Positions 1,640 through 11,315 of a stretch of DNA of 64,000 nucleotides are shown here, piece after piece (the stretch's first letter is position 1; every line of letters begins with the position of its first letter). This DNA comes from Acidobacteriota bacterium (GTDB lineage Bacteria; Acidobacteriota; Terriglobia; Terriglobales; SCQP01), in the NCBI GenBank assembly GCA_027459505.1, contig DAIDIE010000018.1, forward strand, positions 83,571 through 147,570, in the 5' to 3' direction. Made by a program: the position numbers and the translations under genes. The notes beneath the pieces were generated by a model that was not told the DNA's origin, made no database searches, and worked only from the letters and a program-made list of their open reading frames with translations.

Positions 1640-4600
1640 TTAGTGAGCTGCCGCTATGCTCCTTTTATTAATAAGAACCTGTTTCACTTCAGAAACGGCA
1701 AGCTGGGTTGCGGAATCGGAGTTGACCCAAAGGCCCGTCCAAATTCGTTTTGGTAGTGGTACACTTGCGGTTCCAAGCGAAACCCAGTGGGTTCCATCCA
1801 TCGAATAACTGCCAGTGAACGAACTACCTGATCTTTGGAGCCTCAGCCAAAAGGGGAGCGGAGGTGTAGGGGCTTCCCCGATGCTCAGCCAGCCCGTGTA
1901 GCGGACTGGTCGAATCTTAAAAGCAACACCCTTGCCTGCCGTTACAATTACAAAAGCGCCTGCTCCGTGGGGACTGAGGTCCTCTTTTACTGCCAGCCCC
2001 GTAAGAGCGTCAGATCCACCTTCACCGTTCCGCTCCAAGATTTCCCCCGATATAGTCAAATTGCCGCTGGTGCGTCGCAGGAGAAGATTACCTTGGTCGA
2101 AATCGGCGCGCTGCGGCGCAACGCTCGAACCTGAAAGCGTTAGCGTATTCCCCTGGAAGACAGCAGATCCAGGTGTTGGAGGGTAGCCCACGTCGATATC
2201 GATCCAGTCTTTTGAGAGGGCGCAACCGGGCAATAACACCTGACCGAGGTGCCCACACCGTAGTTCATCGTCAGGCAACGGCAGATCTGGGTTTGGAATG
2301 CCTAAAATGTGGTAAACGGAAGTGCGCGCTCCCTCGGCTGCCACCCGCGTCATCTTGAGGTCGGTCACGCCGTTTGGCAGCGGAGGCTGAAGGTCTGGTT
2401 TTAGTGTTCTGAGGTCAGAAAGCGAGGCGTCGATCTCGGACTCCGAAGGCGCATCACCCTGATCGGGCGCTTGATAATCCCCAGGTGCTTCAGGATTGCC
2501 AACAGTCACGTTGTCGAAAAAGCTAACGCGTCTGGAGGGCCCGGTCACTTGAAACCAGGCGGGAGTCACGGCTGCTTGACCTGTGCAGCCGGCAAAGACA
2601 ATGGTGCTGAGAGGCGAGGTATTGTTAGCGTCTACTTGCCCGTCTATGACGTCTTCAAGAAAGGTTGCTCTGCCTTGGAACCCATCAGCGAAGTCAATTA
2701 TTGGTGAAGGCAGTGGCTCATCCGAAGTGAAATAGGGGGCGAGATTGGCGCCGCTTACAGTAATTGAGCCTGCGTTGCCGTAGTTTTGGGAAATATTCGG
2801 ATCCCAACCTTCTTCCCAAATATCCCACATAAGAAGCTTGGCGCCGTGCTCAACGTTGAAAAGGTTTGCCGTGCGGTGGCCCCAGCCAGCGGTAGTATCC
2901 CCACCAAAGATCGAAACCGAAGCAGTGTCAAGTTCGGGGCCGCCGTCTACCAGAACCTGTCCAATATAAGCATCGTAGAGTTTGATTTCGGCGTGGTTAA
3001 GGCCATCGGCCCACAAGGCGGGCCCAATATTCTGAAGACCGTCTGTAGGGTGCTCCATAGAGATGCGGGCACCGCTCTGATCAGCGTTGGTTACCTCAAC
3101 TCCTGTATCGGGGTACCAAAGAAATAGGTCTCGAACGCTCGCCTTGTTGGGTCCCTGCATAAGCAACAACGGACCGCGGACCGTTTGTGCGGGATCTCCG
3201 GAATCCTGCATTAGGCGTGTTGCAGGCCCATCCCCGACAAGGACGAGTCTGACGTTGGCAGGGACGACAAGGGTCTGGTTGAAAATGTAGTCGCCCTGGG
3301 GAAAGTGAACCACAACGCGCTCACCTGTTCGTTGAGCGCGTTCCGCCGCCTCATTGACAATCCGCTGAACTACGCCAACACCGGCTCCGGCTGGGACCTC
3401 AACCACTTTTCCTTCAAACCTTTGCGGAGAAGTTGGCAGTACGGGGAAATATTCCGGAATACTTGATGGTATAGCCACCCGGTCTTCCAAAGACGTCACG
3501 CGGGTATTCGCGCTGGTGGATGTAAAGGGAGTCGATGACGTGTAGGTGTTGCCGAGAGATATAATTTGCGCCTGTGTTGCTGATGTTGTAATCGACAAGA
3601 TTGGTGCAGAGTCGCTGCTTGTCCTGAAAACATTGTCCAATAGCAAATATGGGCCCAGGTCCTCGGATTCAATGGGGGTCGCACTGAGCGAATCGTAAAC
3701 GTGGTTATCTTGAAGGGTTAGGTTTGAGCCGTTTTGCCCCTTGTACCAGTTGACCCAGTAAAAATGACTTGAGCCGTAAGAGGTATTTTCACGCAAGGAA
3801 AAAAAGCCAGTGTTGCCGGTGCTGAAATCGGTCGCCCGAGATCGAAGAAATAAACTGCGGTAAACAAAGAAGTTTCCGGCGCCATGGTCAAGTCCGGGTC
3901 GGGGGCTTGTAGCATTGGAAATACCGATGTTGCAATCTATGAACTGTGAGTACCAGACCCAGTACTGCAGAGCATTGAAGCTTTCGACGCTGATACCGGC
4001 GTGTGAGCACCTGATGAACCTGCAGCGGATGATCGGAACATCCGTGTCCATTACTCCAACGTTGTGAGTTCCGAAGCGGATTCCAAACTGAAGATCCGTG
4101 AATACGCAGTCAGTAATATTGTTCTCCGATTGATCGTAGTAGGCGCCATCCCAACCGCTGTTGATGCCCGCGCCGGCGCTACCGTCACCATCGAATGTTA
4201 GGCGCGATATGCGCGACCACTTGAATCCATTGAGCAGGAGGATGTCTCCGCCCGCCTCTCCTCTCCAGAGTAGGGTTGTATTGCTTGGATCCTGCCCAAT
4301 GATTGCAATGCCCCACCTGTTTGTTACGGTTAGAGTTGACGTCACTAGGTACGTTCCAGATGGAATGTACAAAACACTCGGGTACCCTGGTGTTCCGAGA
4401 TCGTCTAACGCCTGCTGCAGCGCGGCGGTGTCGTCGGCGAGGCCGTTGCCTTTGGCTCCGTAATCTTTCTTCAAGTTGGCCCAGCTTGGAAAGGGGCCGT
4501 AGAAGTGTCCTCTCCAGGACCCGACGCCAAAGACATCCTTCACTGGTAGAGGTAGGGTCTGCCCATAAGCGCTGTGGAGCAGCATAATGAGGGGAGCAAC

Positions 4601-4666
4601 AAGGCAGAGCTGCCGCAAGACGGTTCGCAAGAAACGGTCAAAACTCAGCATGTGTGAGAGAACCAT
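1640..4666 (-). CDS. Secreted right-handed beta-helix protein (pectate lyase-3/GH55-like) with C-terminal lectin-like domain
   Basis: This 1008-residue protein has a signal peptide ending near AYGQ (residue 36); an alternative start at M7 gives a tidier signal. The first module has the pectate-lyase-superfamily hallmark WANLKKDYGAKGNGLADDTA followed by ALQQALDD and VLYIPSGTYLVTSTL. A second such strand entry occurs near residue 430 (VVVHFPQGDYIFNQTLVVP), so two beta-helix halves are present, as in GH55-type double helices. The last 190 residues resemble a concanavalin-like DUF1349-type domain (FWLRLQRSGSSFTGSYSMDG). It probably acts on an extracellular polysaccharide; I could not place a catalytic residue. 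By eye its GC (about 50-55%) is below that of its neighbours, suggesting transfer. Confidence 0.75.
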   Translation of the reverse strand: MVLSHMLSFDRFLRTVLRQLCLVAPLIMLLHSAYGQTLPLPVKDVFGVGSWRGHFYGPFPSWANLKKDYGAKGNGLADDTAALQQALDDLGTPGYPSVLYIPSGTYLVTSTLTVTNRWGIAIIGQDPSNTTLLWRGEAGGDILLLNGFKWSRISRLTFDGDGSAGAGINSGWDGAYYDQSENNITDCVFTDLQFGIRFGTHNVGVMDTDVPIIRCRFIRCSHAGISVESFNALQYWVWYSQFIDCNIGISNATSPRPGLDHGAGNFFVYRSLFLRSRATDFSTGNTGFFSLRENTSYGSSHFYWVNWYKGQNGSNLTLQDNHVYDSLSATPIESEDLGPYLLLDNVFRTSSDSAPILSITTSATQAQIISLGNTYTSSTPFTSTSANTRVTSLEDRVAIPSSIPEYFPVLPTSPQRFEGKVVEVPAGAGVGVVQRIVNEAAERAQRTGERVVVHFPQGDYIFNQTLVVPANVRLVLVGDGPATRLMQDSGDPAQTVRGPLLLMQGPNKASVRDLFLWYPDTGVEVTNADQSGARISMEHPTDGLQNIGPALWADGLNHAEIKLYDAYIGQVLVDGGPELDTASVSIFGGDTTAGWGHRTANLFNVEHGAKLLMWDIWEEGWDPNISQNYGNAGSITVSGANLAPYFTSDEPLPSPIIDFADGFQGRATFLEDVIDGQVDANNTSPLSTIVFAGCTGQAAVTPAWFQVTGPSRRVSFFDNVTVGNPEAPGDYQAPDQGDAPSESEIDASLSDLRTLKPDLQPPLPNGVTDLKMTRVAAEGARTSVYHILGIPNPDLPLPDDELRCGHLGQVLLPGCALSKDWIDIDVGYPPTPGSAVFQGNTLTLSGSSVAPQRADFDQGNLLLRRTSGNLTISGEILERNGEGGSDALTGLAVKEDLSPHGAGAFVIVTAGKGVAFKIRPVRYTGWLSIGEAPTPPLPFWLRLQRSGSSFTGSYSMDGTHWVSLGTASVPLPKRIWTGLWVNSDSATQLAVSEVKQVLINKRSIAAAH

Positions 4667-4809: not shown

Positions 4810-5988
4810 CTAATGATCCTTGCGAAGCTGTTCCAGCAGTACAGCTACGTTAGTATGGCCTTCGATGGCGGCGACCTGGGCAGGAGTAAGGCCATTTTGC
4901 GCGGGCTGCGTGGGGTCGGCACCCGCCTGAACCAGCAATTGGACGAGTTCGGCGTTGCCGGTCAGAGCGGCGGCCATGAGGGCGGTACCGCCGTTGCCAT
5001 CCTGCGCGTTGACGTCGGCGCCGCGTTGCAGCAGGGCTGGGATGAGATCCGGGCAATGGTGCGCGGCGGCAATCAGCGGGGTGACGCCGCCAGCGCTTTG
5101 GGCATTGGGATCGGCGCCAGCGGCGAGCAGGCGCGCGGCGACTTCCGCATGGCCGCGCACCAGAGTGACGAGGAGAGGGGTTGCGCCCTGATCGCCGGCG
5201 AAATTGACGTTGGCGCCGGCGGTGATCAGGCGGTTGCAGGCGGCAAGCTGTCCCTGGATGGCGGCGGCCATAAGGGGAGTGGCGCCGGCCGTACTGACCG
5301 CGTCGACAATCGCCCCTTTCTCCAGCAGTAGCTCCATCACTGCAATCTCGCCGGCGGCAGCGGCGAGCAGGAGCAGGGGCCGCCCCTGATCATCGAATTG
5401 ATTAGGATCGGCGTTGGCTGCCAACAGGAGCGCGGTCAATTCCGCGCTCTGACTGACCGCCGCGGCAAGGGGTGTAAGGCCGTTGCTGGCGCGGGTGTTG
5501 GCCTGGGCTCCCGCTTCCAATAGCCGCTGGGCGGCGGCCTGATGGCCGTTGACCACCGCGCCCAGCAAGGGCGTCACGCCATTCTGATCGCCCTGATTGG
5601 GGTCGGCGCCGAAGACGAGCAGCGCGTTGACGACCGCATCGTGGCCTCCGACCGCGGCAGCCAGCAGGGCGGTAGAGCCTTCGCGCGCTTTTTCCGAAAC
5701 CTGAGCGCCCTTTTCCAGCAACAAACGCACGACGTCGAGTTGTCCCTGAGTTGCGGACAGGATCAGGACGGTAGCGTCATTTTTGTAGCGCGCTTTCAGG
5801 TCGGCGCCCTGGATGAGCAGCACGCGAACGATCTCGATATGGCCCGAGAGCGCGGCGGCCAGCAGGGGCGTCATACCGTTCTTGTGGCGGGCATTGACTT
5901 TGGCTCCCTTGTCGAGGAGCTTGCGCACGCGGGGCAGGTCGCCCTCGGCCGCCGCCCGGATCAGATCCAATTCCCGCAAACTGGCCAT
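4810..5988 (-). CDS. Ankyrin-repeat protein, 12 repeats
   Basis: This 392-residue protein consists almost entirely of about 12 consecutive 32-33-residue ankyrin repeats. The typical unit is NG-x-TPLLAAA-x-GH-x-x-x-V-x-x-LL-x-x-GA-x-x-N; repeats 6 and 10 are each one residue short. No signal peptide or membrane helix is present, so it should be cytosolic and act by protein binding. The N-terminal cap is LRELDLIRAAAEGDLPRVRK and the C-terminal cap ends LLEQLRKDH. The partner is unknown. It is separated by 143 bp from the beta-helix gene downstream and does not look co-functional with it. Confidence 0.9.
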   Translation of the reverse strand: MASLRELDLIRAAAEGDLPRVRKLLDKGAKVNARHKNGMTPLLAAALSGHIEIVRVLLIQGADLKARYKNDATVLILSATQGQLDVVRLLLEKGAQVSEKAREGSTALLAAAVGGHDAVVNALLVFGADPNQGDQNGVTPLLGAVVNGHQAAAQRLLEAGAQANTRASNGLTPLAAAVSQSAELTALLLAANADPNQFDDQGRPLLLLAAAAGEIAVMELLLEKGAIVDAVSTAGATPLMAAAIQGQLAACNRLITAGANVNFAGDQGATPLLVTLVRGHAEVAARLLAAGADPNAQSAGGVTPLIAAAHHCPDLIPALLQRGADVNAQDGNGGTALMAAALTGNAELVQLLVQAGADPTQPAQNGLTPAQVAAIEGHTNVAVLLEQLRKDH

Positions 5989-6633: not shown

Positions 6634-9600
6634 ATGGAGCGCAGGCAAAGCAAAGAGGCGTTCCTGGGAGCGTTGAGGCCGACGGCGCTAAAAGCGATCA
6701 CTGCACTGGCCTGCTGCCTGGTGCTGCTGACGACCTGGGCGGCGCTTCGCAAGAGTGGTCCATTATTGCGGCAGACGCGCCTGTTGCGGCAGTCGGATCG
6801 GGCGCTGCGGGGACTTGATGACGTTGTCAGTGACCTGCACACGGCGCTTGCGGTCCGTGACGCCAGCCGGAATTTACCGCAGCAGGAGCAGGCGGACCAG
6901 CTGCGGGCGCTGCAGCGCCGGGATATAAGGCAGTTAAACAGCCTGCGCAGCCTGCCTGCAGGTTCCGCTGATCCGGCCAGCATTGACGACGCCGTCGACA
7001 CGGCGAACCATTTCTACCAACGTCTGCTGTCGTGTGTGTGGGTGCCGCGGAATGCCCAGGGTGGTGTGTCGCCCGACTGCAATACCTGGGGTGGAGCGCT
7101 GGGGTGGCGGGTTGATCAACTGCGCAACACCATCACCATGCCGCTGGGCAAGGTGAGTCCCTTGCTGACCAAAGCTACCCGGCAGTCACTGCCCCTGCTG
7201 GTAGGTTCGCTGGCGGTGATGTCGCTGATGTTGTTACTGAGCCTGGCGGTGATGACCAATTCACGGCGGCGGCGGCAAAAAGTGTTGGCGCAATTGCAAT
7301 CCGCGGAGGCGCTTTACCAGGCGATTCTGGACTCGGCGGCGGAGGGTATTGCTGGTATTGACCACAATGGCCGGACGCATTTCATCAACGACAGCGCCTT
7401 GCGTCTGCTGGGTTATTCGCGTGCGGGGGTGCTCAGGCGAGAGCAGCACTTGCTGTGGCACCAACACTCCGGAGGTCTCCAATCGAGTTGTGCGATGCAC
7501 GGATTGGAGCAGCCCGCCAGTGAGGGAGTGGATGAGCTGTTGCGCGCCGACCAAACGCTAGTTCCGGTACACTACTCCGCCTCTCCATTGCGCGACGACG
7601 CCGGTCGGCTGCTCGGGCGGGTTTGCACCCTCCGGGATGCACGCCGGGAGTTGGAGTTGGAGCGGGGGCGGGAAGAGTTTATAGCCCATGTGGCGCACCG
7701 GTTGCGGGCGCCGTTCAAAGCGGTAAGCAACTCGTTGGAACTGCTGCGCGCAGGCGAACTTGGCGAATTGCCGGCGGCGATTGAGCCGCTTCTCGACGTG
7801 GCCAGCCGCAACAGTGCCCGTACGATGCGTCTGGTATCGACGTTGCTGGAAATGGAGCGTATCCGCGCCGGGAAGGAGGCCTTTCACTTCGAATTTGTGG
7901 CGGCGGTGGAGGTACTGCAGGGGTTGCGGGCAGCGCTGACGGCGGAACTGGCGGAACGGGGTATCACGCTGCAGCTTTCCAATGCACCGCAGGAGTGCCG
8001 GATCTGGGCGGATGCCGCACGTCTTCACGAGGCACTGACGGCTGTGGTGCGCTACAGCGCGTCGCGTTCCGTCCTGGGTTCGTCGATTTCGGTAAGAATC
8101 ATGGTCTCGCCCGCGGGAATGCGTTCGGCTGGGCAGGGGGAAGAGGTCACTTTCAGTATTGAGGACCAGACGTCCGCCATTCCCATGCTGGTGAAGCGCC
8201 TCTTAGGCGATGATTACCCACTGGTGCAATCGGACCCGGAGTTAACGGGAGAGGCGCTGGGTCTGTCGCTGGCGGCCGCGGTTGCGCGCCACCATGGCAG
8301 CGGGTTACAGGTTCTAGTACTGAATCTCGGTAACAGGTTTTCCCTGAGCTGTGTAACCAGAGAGGCTGATCTTGGCGCCGCGCTGTCTGGCGTTGAGCGA
8401 TCGAAGCGGCTGGGCACCTCTTTGGCCAGCTACTCAAGGTTGGAAGCCCATGGTTCCAGCGGGTCCGCCGCGGATGGCACCCAGCAGCCGGAGCAGGAGA
8501 CAGGCGATGGAGCGCGCTCAGGTGAAGAAGGCGCCTCGCCGGCCGTTGCCATGACCAGGAAGAGATGGTTGCAGTTCCCTCCGTTGCGGCGCCTGGCGCG
8601 TGCATTGCAGTCTTTGCATGCCGTGCTGCACATCGTCTTTCTGGTGGCGTGGTCGGGGCTCGCTATCTTCGCGGTGGTGGGGGCGCTGGACCTGCATTTC
8701 ATCGCCGCGAGGGCGGGGCAAGCCGCTCACGCCAGCCTGGTCCTCAGCGAAATCCAGTTCACTACTGACGCCTATGGGACGTTGCGCGAGGCGAGCACGC
8801 AGTACGTCGCGCAGCCAGCCGACTTTCGCCCCTGGGCGGCGGCATATAGCGCCATGGGAGAGATCGCGTTTTACCGCTTTGGCCGGCTGGAGCGATTTCT
8901 GGCAAGGGACAAGGGGGATACGAGCGAACTGCACCGCCTGGAGAGCGTCATGAACCCCGAAGCCCAGGGCGCGATCCACTGCATGATAACGGCGCGGGAC
9001 GAGGGAAGCGCCGCGGGCAAGAGCTGCCTGGCGCGACTCGGGCCGCTTGCAGACGCGTATCCGATACTGGACCTGCTGCGAGGCAACGCTTTCGCCGTTC
9101 TATCGCCACTTTCGGGAGAACTGGATCGGGCGAGCCGGCTGGTGGTTGCTTTGATCTGGGCGAGCGCGATTTTGAGCCTATGTGTGTTATTGCTGGCTGT
9201 GGTGTTGCACCGCGTCAACGTGCTCAGTTTGCGTCATCGCATGCGGGCGATCCGGCTGCTCTCCGCTCGCAGCCGGGCGATTCTCGATTCTCTGGCGACC
9301 GGCTTCTGCGGCACGGATGAGAAGGGTTCGATCCGCTTTGTCAATCGTGCCGGGGCGGCGCTGTTGGGCAGCCGCCCCGAAGATCTGCTGGGGCGTTCGG
9401 CTACCCAGGAACTATTCGGTCAAGTGGGTGGCGCGCAATGGTTGGCCAGCGTAAGCACTCCGCCGGCCCTGTGTCTGGAGAGCCGCCACCGGGGCCAACT
9501 GGCGGTGCGCGGCGGCGATGCGATTGCGGCCGACTATACCGTGGCCGCCTTGAGTGGCAAGGGGCGAGGTTACGTCATTTCGTTTCAGGATGTTCGCCCG

Positions 9601-10404
9601 CGGCTGAAGCTTGAGGAGCGGCAACGGCAGTTCACCGAATCGTTTGTGTTTCTGTTACGCAATGCATTGACGCCGGTGCGCGCCACGATCGGTTTGTTGG
9701 CCGGGGAAACGGTGGCGCGACTGACGCCGGCCATGGCGAGCATTGTTTCGATCGCGGCCAGGAGCGCGGAGCGGATGCAGCATTTGCTGGAGATGCTGGC
9801 GCCGGAAGAGGTTCCCGCGGGTGAAGTGGCGCTTCAAATTGGGCCCTGGGACGCGGCGGCTCTCGCCTATGCCGCCCGCCAGCAAGTGGAAAGCGGGGCG
9901 GAACGGCGGAGCGTGCGGGTGGAAGTGAGCGCGCCGTTGCAGGCGCTGCCGTGCAATGCCGATGGCGAACGGCTTGTGCAGGTATTGGCGAGCCTGTTGA
10001 CGAATGCGGTTGAGGCCAGTGAACAGAGGTCTGTCGTCGAATTACGGCTGGAGGCCTCAGCCCCGCTGCGCCGCCGAGGGGTGGAAGCGCTGATGCTGGC
10101 GCGGGAAGGGGTCATTTTCCAAGTCGTCGATCACGGCCGCGGAATTGCGCGCGAGCGTCTGGCGCTGCTGTTCACTCCCTTTGCGGCGGCCCGCCAAACA
10201 TCCACTGAAGAGCCGTCCGAGACGGGTTGGGCGTTGACGCTGCCGGTGTGCCGGGAAATTGTTGAGCGCCATGGCGGGTCTCTCTGGGTGGAAAGCGAGT
10301 TGGGCGCAGGGACCACGTTCACGCTATGGATTCCCCGCAATCCACCTCAGCCGGCTACAAGTGCGCTCAGCTCCTGGCCGGCAGCCAGTTTGGCAACCAG
10401 CTAG
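6634..10404 (+). CDS. Tandem double sensor histidine kinase in one chain, with complementary degeneration
   Basis: This 1256-residue membrane protein contains two complete sensor-kinase layouts. Module 1 (1-575): TM 19-38, external sensor 40-185, TM 187-208, PAS 225-340, HisKA with H355 in AHRLRAPF, then an ATPase-like domain with broken motifs (N-box Asn replaced by Y474, G1 reads DQTSAI). Module 2 (640-1256): TM 663-684, external sensor, TM 836-858, PAS 880-985, a HisKA-like helix where the His position is F1006 (FVFLLRN), then an ATPase with intact N1124, DHGRGI at 1166-1171, the F-box LLFTPF and a G2 box GWAL. One half therefore keeps the phosphoacceptor and the other the ATP site. No response regulator is adjacent. 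M640 (ATG at 8551) could mark an old gene boundary. Confidence 0.85.
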   Translation: MERRQSKEAFLGALRPTALKAITALACCLVLLTTWAALRKSGPLLRQTRLLRQSDRALRGLDDVVSDLHTALAVRDASRNLPQQEQADQLRALQRRDIRQLNSLRSLPAGSADPASIDDAVDTANHFYQRLLSCVWVPRNAQGGVSPDCNTWGGALGWRVDQLRNTITMPLGKVSPLLTKATRQSLPLLVGSLAVMSLMLLLSLAVMTNSRRRRQKVLAQLQSAEALYQAILDSAAEGIAGIDHNGRTHFINDSALRLLGYSRAGVLRREQHLLWHQHSGGLQSSCAMHGLEQPASEGVDELLRADQTLVPVHYSASPLRDDAGRLLGRVCTLRDARRELELERGREEFIAHVAHRLRAPFKAVSNSLELLRAGELGELPAAIEPLLDVASRNSARTMRLVSTLLEMERIRAGKEAFHFEFVAAVEVLQGLRAALTAELAERGITLQLSNAPQECRIWADAARLHEALTAVVRYSASRSVLGSSISVRIMVSPAGMRSAGQGEEVTFSIEDQTSAIPMLVKRLLGDDYPLVQSDPELTGEALGLSLAAAVARHHGSGLQVLVLNLGNRFSLSCVTREADLGAALSGVERSKRLGTSLASYSRLEAHGSSGSAADGTQQPEQETGDGARSGEEGASPAVAMTRKRWLQFPPLRRLARALQSLHAVLHIVFLVAWSGLAIFAVVGALDLHFIAARAGQAAHASLVLSEIQFTTDAYGTLREASTQYVAQPADFRPWAAAYSAMGEIAFYRFGRLERFLARDKGDTSELHRLESVMNPEAQGAIHCMITARDEGSAAGKSCLARLGPLADAYPILDLLRGNAFAVLSPLSGELDRASRLVVALIWASAILSLCVLLLAVVLHRVNVLSLRHRMRAIRLLSARSRAILDSLATGFCGTDEKGSIRFVNRAGAALLGSRPEDLLGRSATQELFGQVGGAQWLASVSTPPALCLESRHRGQLAVRGGDAIAADYTVAALSGKGRGYVISFQDVRPRLKLEERQRQFTESFVFLLRNALTPVRATIGLLAGETVARLTPAMASIVSIAARSAERMQHLLEMLAPEEVPAGEVALQIGPWDAAALAYAARQQVESGAERRSVRVEVSAPLQALPCNADGERLVQVLASLLTNAVEASEQRSVVELRLEASAPLRRRGVEALMLAREGVIFQVVDHGRGIARERLALLFTPFAAARQTSTEEPSETGWALTLPVCREIVERHGGSLWVESELGAGTTFTLWIPRNPPQPATSALSSWPAASLATS

Positions 10405-10451: not shown

Positions 10452-11003
10452 TCAGAGTTTCCGGACCCAGCTTGGATCGGGCAGCCGCACGCGCACGCCA
10501 CTTTGGATGGCGGTGACCACGAGAGCCATAGCGCCGGGTTCCTTCAACAGGAGCCTGGCGTGACAGCCCTTAAGAGCGCCACTGGTGATTTCAACTTCGT
10601 CCCCCACATGGACTTCCGGGAGCGGGTCAAACGAGAGGCCGCTTTCCAGGAGGCGCTCGACGGCATGAAGTTCCTCCGCGTCCACTTCGACCAGCCCTTG
10701 CCGTGACTTCACAAACCAGAGAAAGCCAGGCGCCTGCATGACGCGCCGCTGTTCCTCCGCATTGACGTTGGCAAACACGTAGGAGGGGAACAAGGGCAAT
10801 CGGAGCAGCTTGCGCCGGTCGCTCCATTGGCGCCAGCTCTGATACGTAGGCAGAAAGATGCGGCAGCCTCGCTCGCTACAGTAGTTGGCCACGCGCTGCT
10901 CAAAGCGGGGTTTGGTATAGATGGCCAGCCAACGGGTGCCGGGGGCGGGCATTTGCTGACCGGAGGGGGCAACGGATGGGGAAGTCTTGGCTTTGGCGTC
11001 CAT
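10452..11003 (-). CDS. NusG/RfaH-like transcription antitermination protein
   Basis: This 183-residue protein has an NGN domain (RWLAIYTKPRFEQRVANY, FLPTYQSWRQWSDRRK, LPLFPSYVFANV) at about 24-115 and a KOW motif (VGDEVEITSGALKGCHARLL) at about 133-155. Such specialised NusG paralogues (RfaH, UpxY, LoaP types) let RNA polymerase read through long polysaccharide operons. It is divergent from the 15-kb exopolysaccharide cluster, which fits that job. The start at 11003 (MDAKAK) is chosen because the frame upstream has no NusG similarity; M at 10952 (MPAPGTRW), right at the domain edge, is an alternative. No strong Shine-Dalgarno supports either. Confidence 0.85.
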   Translation of the reverse strand: MDAKAKTSPSVAPSGQQMPAPGTRWLAIYTKPRFEQRVANYCSERGCRIFLPTYQSWRQWSDRRKLLRLPLFPSYVFANVNAEEQRRVMQAPGFLWFVKSRQGLVEVDAEELHAVERLLESGLSFDPLPEVHVGDEVEITSGALKGCHARLLLKEPGAMALVVTAIQSGVRVRLPDPSWVRKL

Positions 11004-11315
11004 ACAATGCGTGGAGCGGTTGCCGGGCATTTGACCCGGCGGTTGTGGGTTCTGGACCACCCAAACCCATTGTAGCGAAGGCACTTGATGCCAATTGGGG
11101 CGAGCGGCTTGCAGCGACGTGGAAGGCGGGCCGTCTTTAGCGAGGGCGCTAGGAATTTCTCCTGTAGCGCGGGCGAAAAGCTGCCGATACAATGTGTGTC
11201 TCTGTTTTTCAGGATGAACTAAGGAACCCCGGGGACCCGAATGTGAGCGGGCGAGAAGCTGGGGGCATTGGGACTGAGAGGACGGAGGTGTCTCCGCCCG
11301 GGCAGGCAAGCAGCC
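11004..11315. other. Divergent promoter region between antiterminator and polysaccharide cluster
   Basis: About 312 bp hold an inverted repeat GCCGGG-N7-CCCGGC around 11024-11042 and a second one, CGGAG-GTGT-CTCCG, at 11283-11296, only 20 bp before the first cluster gene. TACAAT boxes occur on both strands (about 11068-11073 minus, 11188-11193 plus) without good -35 elements. An antiterminator recruitment site would be expected in the leader, but none is recognisable. Confidence 0.4.

Follow-up and report, generated by a model that had tools for sequence, protein, structure and literature searches.

TodS of Pseudomonas putida carries two histidine kinase modules per chain with a receiver between them, and His190, Asp500, and His760 are all required (PMC4861429). 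Two modules per chain are also found in the protein described here—a 1256-residue sensor kinase encoded in the window, which is the whole stretch of 64,000 nucleotides that was analysed—and in a kinase on contig C20 of the same genome (L064:1827–4580, minus strand), whose 917 residues hold a receiver between two intact HisKA–HATPase modules in a TodS-like order. Unlike TodS, the window protein is degenerate in both modules and carries no receiver. DivL of Caulobacter features a Tyr in place of the phosphoacceptor His and reuses its DHp–CA fold for docking (PMC4211667). Module 2 of the window protein likewise features an aromatic residue, Phe, at this position, and its fold may be reused in a similar manner. 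DivL differs in that the other histidine kinase motifs are retained, including the N, G1, F, and G2 boxes, and in that it has a single, dimer-forming histidine kinase module.

RetS of the RetS/GacS system of Pseudomonas aeruginosa is, like the window protein, a sensor with a HisKA domain and a HATPase domain devoid of G-boxes; it is incapable of autophosphorylation and acts on another kinase (PMC5992135). RetS has receiver domains and retains the HExxT motif, whereas the window protein has two modules, is receiver-less, and lacks both the E and the T of this motif in module 1. FasB and FasC of group A Streptococcus are a kinase-like pair, one of which gives the His and the other the kinase domain according to the authors' model: H246 of FasC, whose own kinase domain is dispensable, is the proposed target of the FasB kinase domain (PMC12675982). 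With a working split site, the window protein would resemble this pair, but FasB and FasC are separate proteins, and FasB retains both His residues and an acting kinase domain, whereas the window protein is a single chain in which the ATP site of module 2 and the H-box of module 1 are both damaged. Measured against a FasBC-like split, the His and the N/G1 residues are divided as needed, but the acidic residue following the His (H+1) and the G2 glycines are not in the halves that need them.

Tandem one-chain kinases such as TodS and pseudo-histidine kinases such as DivL, RetS, and FasC are already known. For a receiver-less chain that combines two degenerate HisKA modules, no earlier description was found in the openly licensed literature, and this combination is new within what was searched. 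Few pseudo-histidine kinases are known, and these mostly as single-module proteins.

Architecture, neighbourhood, and distribution

The tandem sensor kinase is encoded by an open frame without internal stop at positions 6634–10404 of the plus strand, on which all of its features lie. A Pfam scan of the chain yields PAS, HisKA, and HATPase_c twice each, and hydropathy indicates four transmembrane helices at approximately residues 18–36, 188–206, 667–685, and 836–854. The two helix pairs give the order TM–sensor–TM–PAS–kinase, linker, TM–sensor–TM–PAS–kinase, in agreement with the preliminary description of two such modules in one 1256-residue chain. The first module consists of TM1 (6685–6741), sensor region 1 (about residues 40–185, 6751–7188), which matches no Pfam family, TM2 (7195–7251), PAS domain 1 (residues 227–335, 7312–7638; PF00989), HisKA 1 (residues 346–413, 7669–7872; PF00512 at 38.2 bits, and alignment), and a degenerate HATPase_c 1 (residues 464–560, 8023–8313), which was assigned by a profile match (26.4 bits) and alignment, and which is weak when taken alone (22.9 bits against a cut-off of 26.4). 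A linker of low complexity, as judged by sequence and composition (residues 591–645, 8404–8568), joins it to the second module. This one features TM3 (8632–8688), sensor region 2 (about residues 690–832, 8701–9129), again without a matching Pfam family, TM4 (9139–9195), PAS domain 2, of which the N-terminal half is matched (residues 881–929, 9274–9420; PF00989), a partial HisKA 2 (residues 1008–1055, 9655–9798), and HATPase_c 2 (residues 1110–1235, 9961–10338; 80.8 bits, and alignment). The HisKA 2 assignment comes from alignment and from a Pfam match below the curated cut-off (16.9 against 26.9 bits) that covers profile positions 13–57 only. Pfam finds no Response_reg domain in the frame, and no receiver match of the genome scan falls inside it. 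The structure predicted for residues 216–1256 from the single sequence has a mean pLDDT of 37 and is too poor for use.

The kinase gene stands alone, beside polysaccharide-type genes and between an ankyrin-repeat gene (4810–5988, minus strand) and a NusG-like gene (10452–11216, minus strand), which is convergent on it and lies at the edge of a polysaccharide-type cluster. Farther out, a gene at 1640–4666 of the minus strand encodes a protein of 1008 residues whose pectate-lyase-like N-terminal domain is matched by Pfam over a short stretch only. No signalling partner was found near the gene; of the receiver domains found on the contig, the closest ends approximately 24 kb upstream. Promoter and terminator scans stayed at chance level, and Rfam gave no match. 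Homologues of the NusG-like neighbour occur in 10 of 14 genomes of the family; eight NusG-like regions of family genomes hold no match to the kinase, the ankyrin-repeat gene, or the pectate-lyase-like gene.

No orthologue was found in approximately 1,280 genome searches in overlapping sets up to the phylum—the 14 genomes of the family, 60 relatives, named genomes, and approximately 400 genomes each for order, class, and phylum. The family was searched with sensor region 2 as query, and none of its 13 other genomes has a homologue of this region. The best matches of the orthologue searches are ordinary kinases with approximately 30–36% identity over a single module, and those examined in full feature standard motifs. 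Viral contigs, searched to deepen the alignment, gave no match.

Catalytic residues and their division between the modules

The genome comprises 4.06 Mb in 45 contigs, in which profile searches find 50 HisKA and 62 HATPase_c matches. A set of 46 other kinases with both domains was aligned as a reference, and the catalytic columns were compared. These columns are nearly uniform: His is found in 44 of 46 kinases at the phosphoacceptor position, Glu or Asp in 43 of 46 at H+1 (the remainder being Gln, Gln, and His), 45 of 46 have the last G2 glycine, and the N-box Asn, the Asp, both G1 glycines, and the central G2 glycine are invariant (46/46 each).

Module 1 is the only one to have the phosphoacceptor His, H355 (codon 7696–7698), followed by R356 at H+1, A359 at H+4, and P360. 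Its ATP site features Y474 in the N-box and the stretch DQTSAI (residues 511–516) at G1, which places D511, T513, and A515 in the G1 columns; G2 reads G539–A541–G543, with the last glycine retained. An alignment to HK853 places the module 1 residues likewise, and HMMER alignments to HK853 and ZraS match on the main points. Module 2 carries F1006 (codon 9649–9651) in the His column, followed by L1007, N1010, and A1011, and the DHp Pro is lost. It retains N1124, D1166, G1168, and G1170, the latter three within DHGRGI (residues 1166–1171), and its G2 reads G1198–A1200–T1202. The G2 register is ambiguous by two residues—in the gapped version of the HMMER and 66-column alignments, G1198 and G539 become the central glycine and the first is lost—but whichever register is used, a single one of the three G2 glycines survives in module 2, where the last position is occupied by T1202. 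The H+1 acid is absent from both modules (R356 and L1007), and neither holds N, G1, and G2 together: module 1 lacks N and G1, and module 2 lacks two of the three G2 glycines. The residues named in the preliminary description for module 1 (H355, Y474, and DQTSAI) and module 2 (F1006, N1124, and DHGRGI) all fall in the expected columns of the 46-kinase alignment, and alignment to profiles and kinases restores neither a His in module 2 nor an ATP site in module 1.

It had further been claimed that whatever function one half has lost, the other retains. This is not supported, since the H+1 acid is gone from both modules and G2 is broken in module 2. For an active site split across the modules, the His and the H+1 acid would have to come from module 1, and N, D, G1, and G2 from module 2. 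Six of these nine positions fit, as counted in the ungapped G2 register of the 46-kinase alignment; the H+1 acid and two G2 glycines are missing from the halves that need them, and G543, the last G2 glycine, is retained in the wrong half. A broader comparison used 66 columns in which conservation reaches ≥90% across 50 clade-like kinases. Of these, 20 are retained in both modules, 18 in module 2 only, 11 in module 1 only, and 17 in neither, so that the association of retention is, if anything, positive (odds 1.7, Fisher p = 0.33). Retention is, hence, not complementary, and the losses are no general exchange between the halves. Of the built-in split heterodimer proposed at first, the two sensors and two modules, the His in module 1 only, and N/G1 in module 2 only have stood, while complementarity has not.

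A signalling pseudokinase is, because the losses are not neatly complementary, likelier than an active site split across the halves. With modest confidence, the chain is read as a double-sensor membrane pseudokinase receptor derived from two HisKA-type kinases through fusion or internal duplication, with both catalytic halves degenerate. This reading is favoured by the catalytic features missing from module 1 (N-box, G1 glycines, H+1 acid) and from module 2 (His, H+1 acid, DHp Pro, two of the three G2 glycines), and by the orphan position of the gene with respect to receivers. The branches of both modules are the longest of their clade, as would be those of pseudoenzymes, the hydrophobic core is retained, and the frame runs through 1256 codons without a stop. 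On sequence grounds, the chain would belong with pseudo-histidine kinases of the DivL and RetS kind: the histidine kinase fold appears to be retained, and catalytic residues are lost in both modules. The two DHp hairpins may form a built-in heterodimer or pack against another kinase, and two external (periplasmic) signals would be relayed, as in DivL or RetS, via conformation and by docking either a response regulator or a partner kinase instead of by autophosphorylation. His355 is perhaps retained to take phosphate from another kinase or a receiver. The reading is weakened by the retention of H355 together with N, D, and both G1 glycines, which goes beyond the needs of a wholly non-catalytic chain, and by the plant CSK, which binds ATP though it has no recognisable G2 box (PMC5054060), so that loss of G2 need not end ATP binding. 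Two degenerate modules in one chain, if confirmed, would make a built-in heterodimer and a simple setting for how two sensors share one output, and would bear on the extent of active-site loss that a kinase can bear.

An unlikely alternative, though one of some weight, is that, in an intramolecular pseudo-dimer, His355 of module 1 receives phosphate from the ATPase domain of module 2, and module 1 passes it to an unlinked response regulator. The confinement of the His to module 1 and of the N-box and G1 glycines to module 2 is what this would demand, FasB/FasC offers a natural two-protein precedent (PMC12675982), and ATP binding sometimes survives a missing G2 box (PMC5054060). Against it, Arg356 replaces the acidic neighbour of the phosphoacceptor: this acid is required for kinase activity in CrdS, HK853, HK1190, and HK4262, and its change from Glu to Ala, Asp, Gln, or Gly in CrdS abolished kinase activity (PMC3510030). 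The G–A–T reading of the module 2 G2 box is a further obstacle, any glycine substitution in G1 or G2 being reported to inactivate the cyanobacterial CSK (PMC5054060), as are the absent complementarity over the 66 conserved columns and the lack of any orthologue found that would show the split conserved. A shade less probable still is the stricter form, an obligate intramolecular asymmetric reaction that joins two external sensors with a His devoid of an acidic neighbour and an ATP site devoid of a standard G2. Should the split site work, a kinase could do without both the acidic neighbour of its His and the G2 glycines. Whether pseudokinase or split site, the protein is a natural counterpart of the classical mixed-mutant trans-phosphorylation tests.

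Origin and maintenance of the gene

Both modules fall inside the clade of the genome's SHELRTPLTSIRGALGLLASG kinases (SH-aLRT 93), and judged from this tree both halves derive from the ordinary kinase clade of their own genome. Their branch lengths of 3.29 and 2.15 compare with approximately 0.2–0.7 for relatives. The tree pairs the two modules without support and under long-branch warnings, and so favours neither internal duplication nor fusion of two paralogues. Fusion of an adjacent kinase pair is a plausible origin of the tandem chain. The genome holds two adjacent kinase pairs with homologous sensors. In the C24 pair (L043:2040–5600, plus strand), two intact kinases share a frame, with one stop and 16 codons between them. 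In the C19 pair (L046:1289–4888, plus strand), the first kinase belongs to another HisKA class (HDFNN) and has a T–G–A G2 box, and the second is intact. The sensors of the window protein have only short matches to those of the C24 and C19 kinases, around TM stretches. Loss of the single stop in the C24 pair would yield a tandem chain resembling the window protein.

That the gene has been decaying since the fusion or duplication, no longer selected for signalling and with a frame so far uninterrupted, is rather improbable. Decay would fit the lack of an orthologue in the family and at the NusG locus of relatives, the very long branches, and the catalytic losses in both halves. Yet 520 codons randomised at the same composition stay free of stops with a chance of only approximately 3 × 10⁻⁷, and no segment of the frame departs from normal codon-position GC. 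The hydrophobic core columns are still hydrophobic in 50/55 and 51/55 cases in the two modules (91–93%), compared with 44/153 and 37/153 elsewhere, a signal that is partly due to shared ancestry. The TM helices, the PAS cores, H355, and N/D/G1 are all retained as well. The open frame, the normal codon-position GC, and the retained core argue for a maintained, folded product and against a decaying gene. An artificial joining of two adjacent kinase genes through an assembly or base-calling error is very improbable: same-clade kinase genes do adjoin elsewhere in the genome, as in the same-frame C24 pair with its 16-codon gap, but the linker is open and in frame through 55 codons, no well-spaced ribosome site is seen ahead of the internal ATG at 8551, and the residue losses of both halves would be left unexplained.

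Other kinases with altered His columns also occur in this genome. The C43 kinase (L045:5452–6633, minus strand), of the same clade, is a second His-less kinase of the genome; Gly occupies its His column (SMVGGELRTPL), its N, G1, and G2 boxes are intact, and it sits directly 5′ of an intact kinase of 871 residues. In the L094 kinase (C19:152141–152326, minus strand), the His and H+1 columns hold Arg and Gln, respectively, and the ATP boxes are intact.
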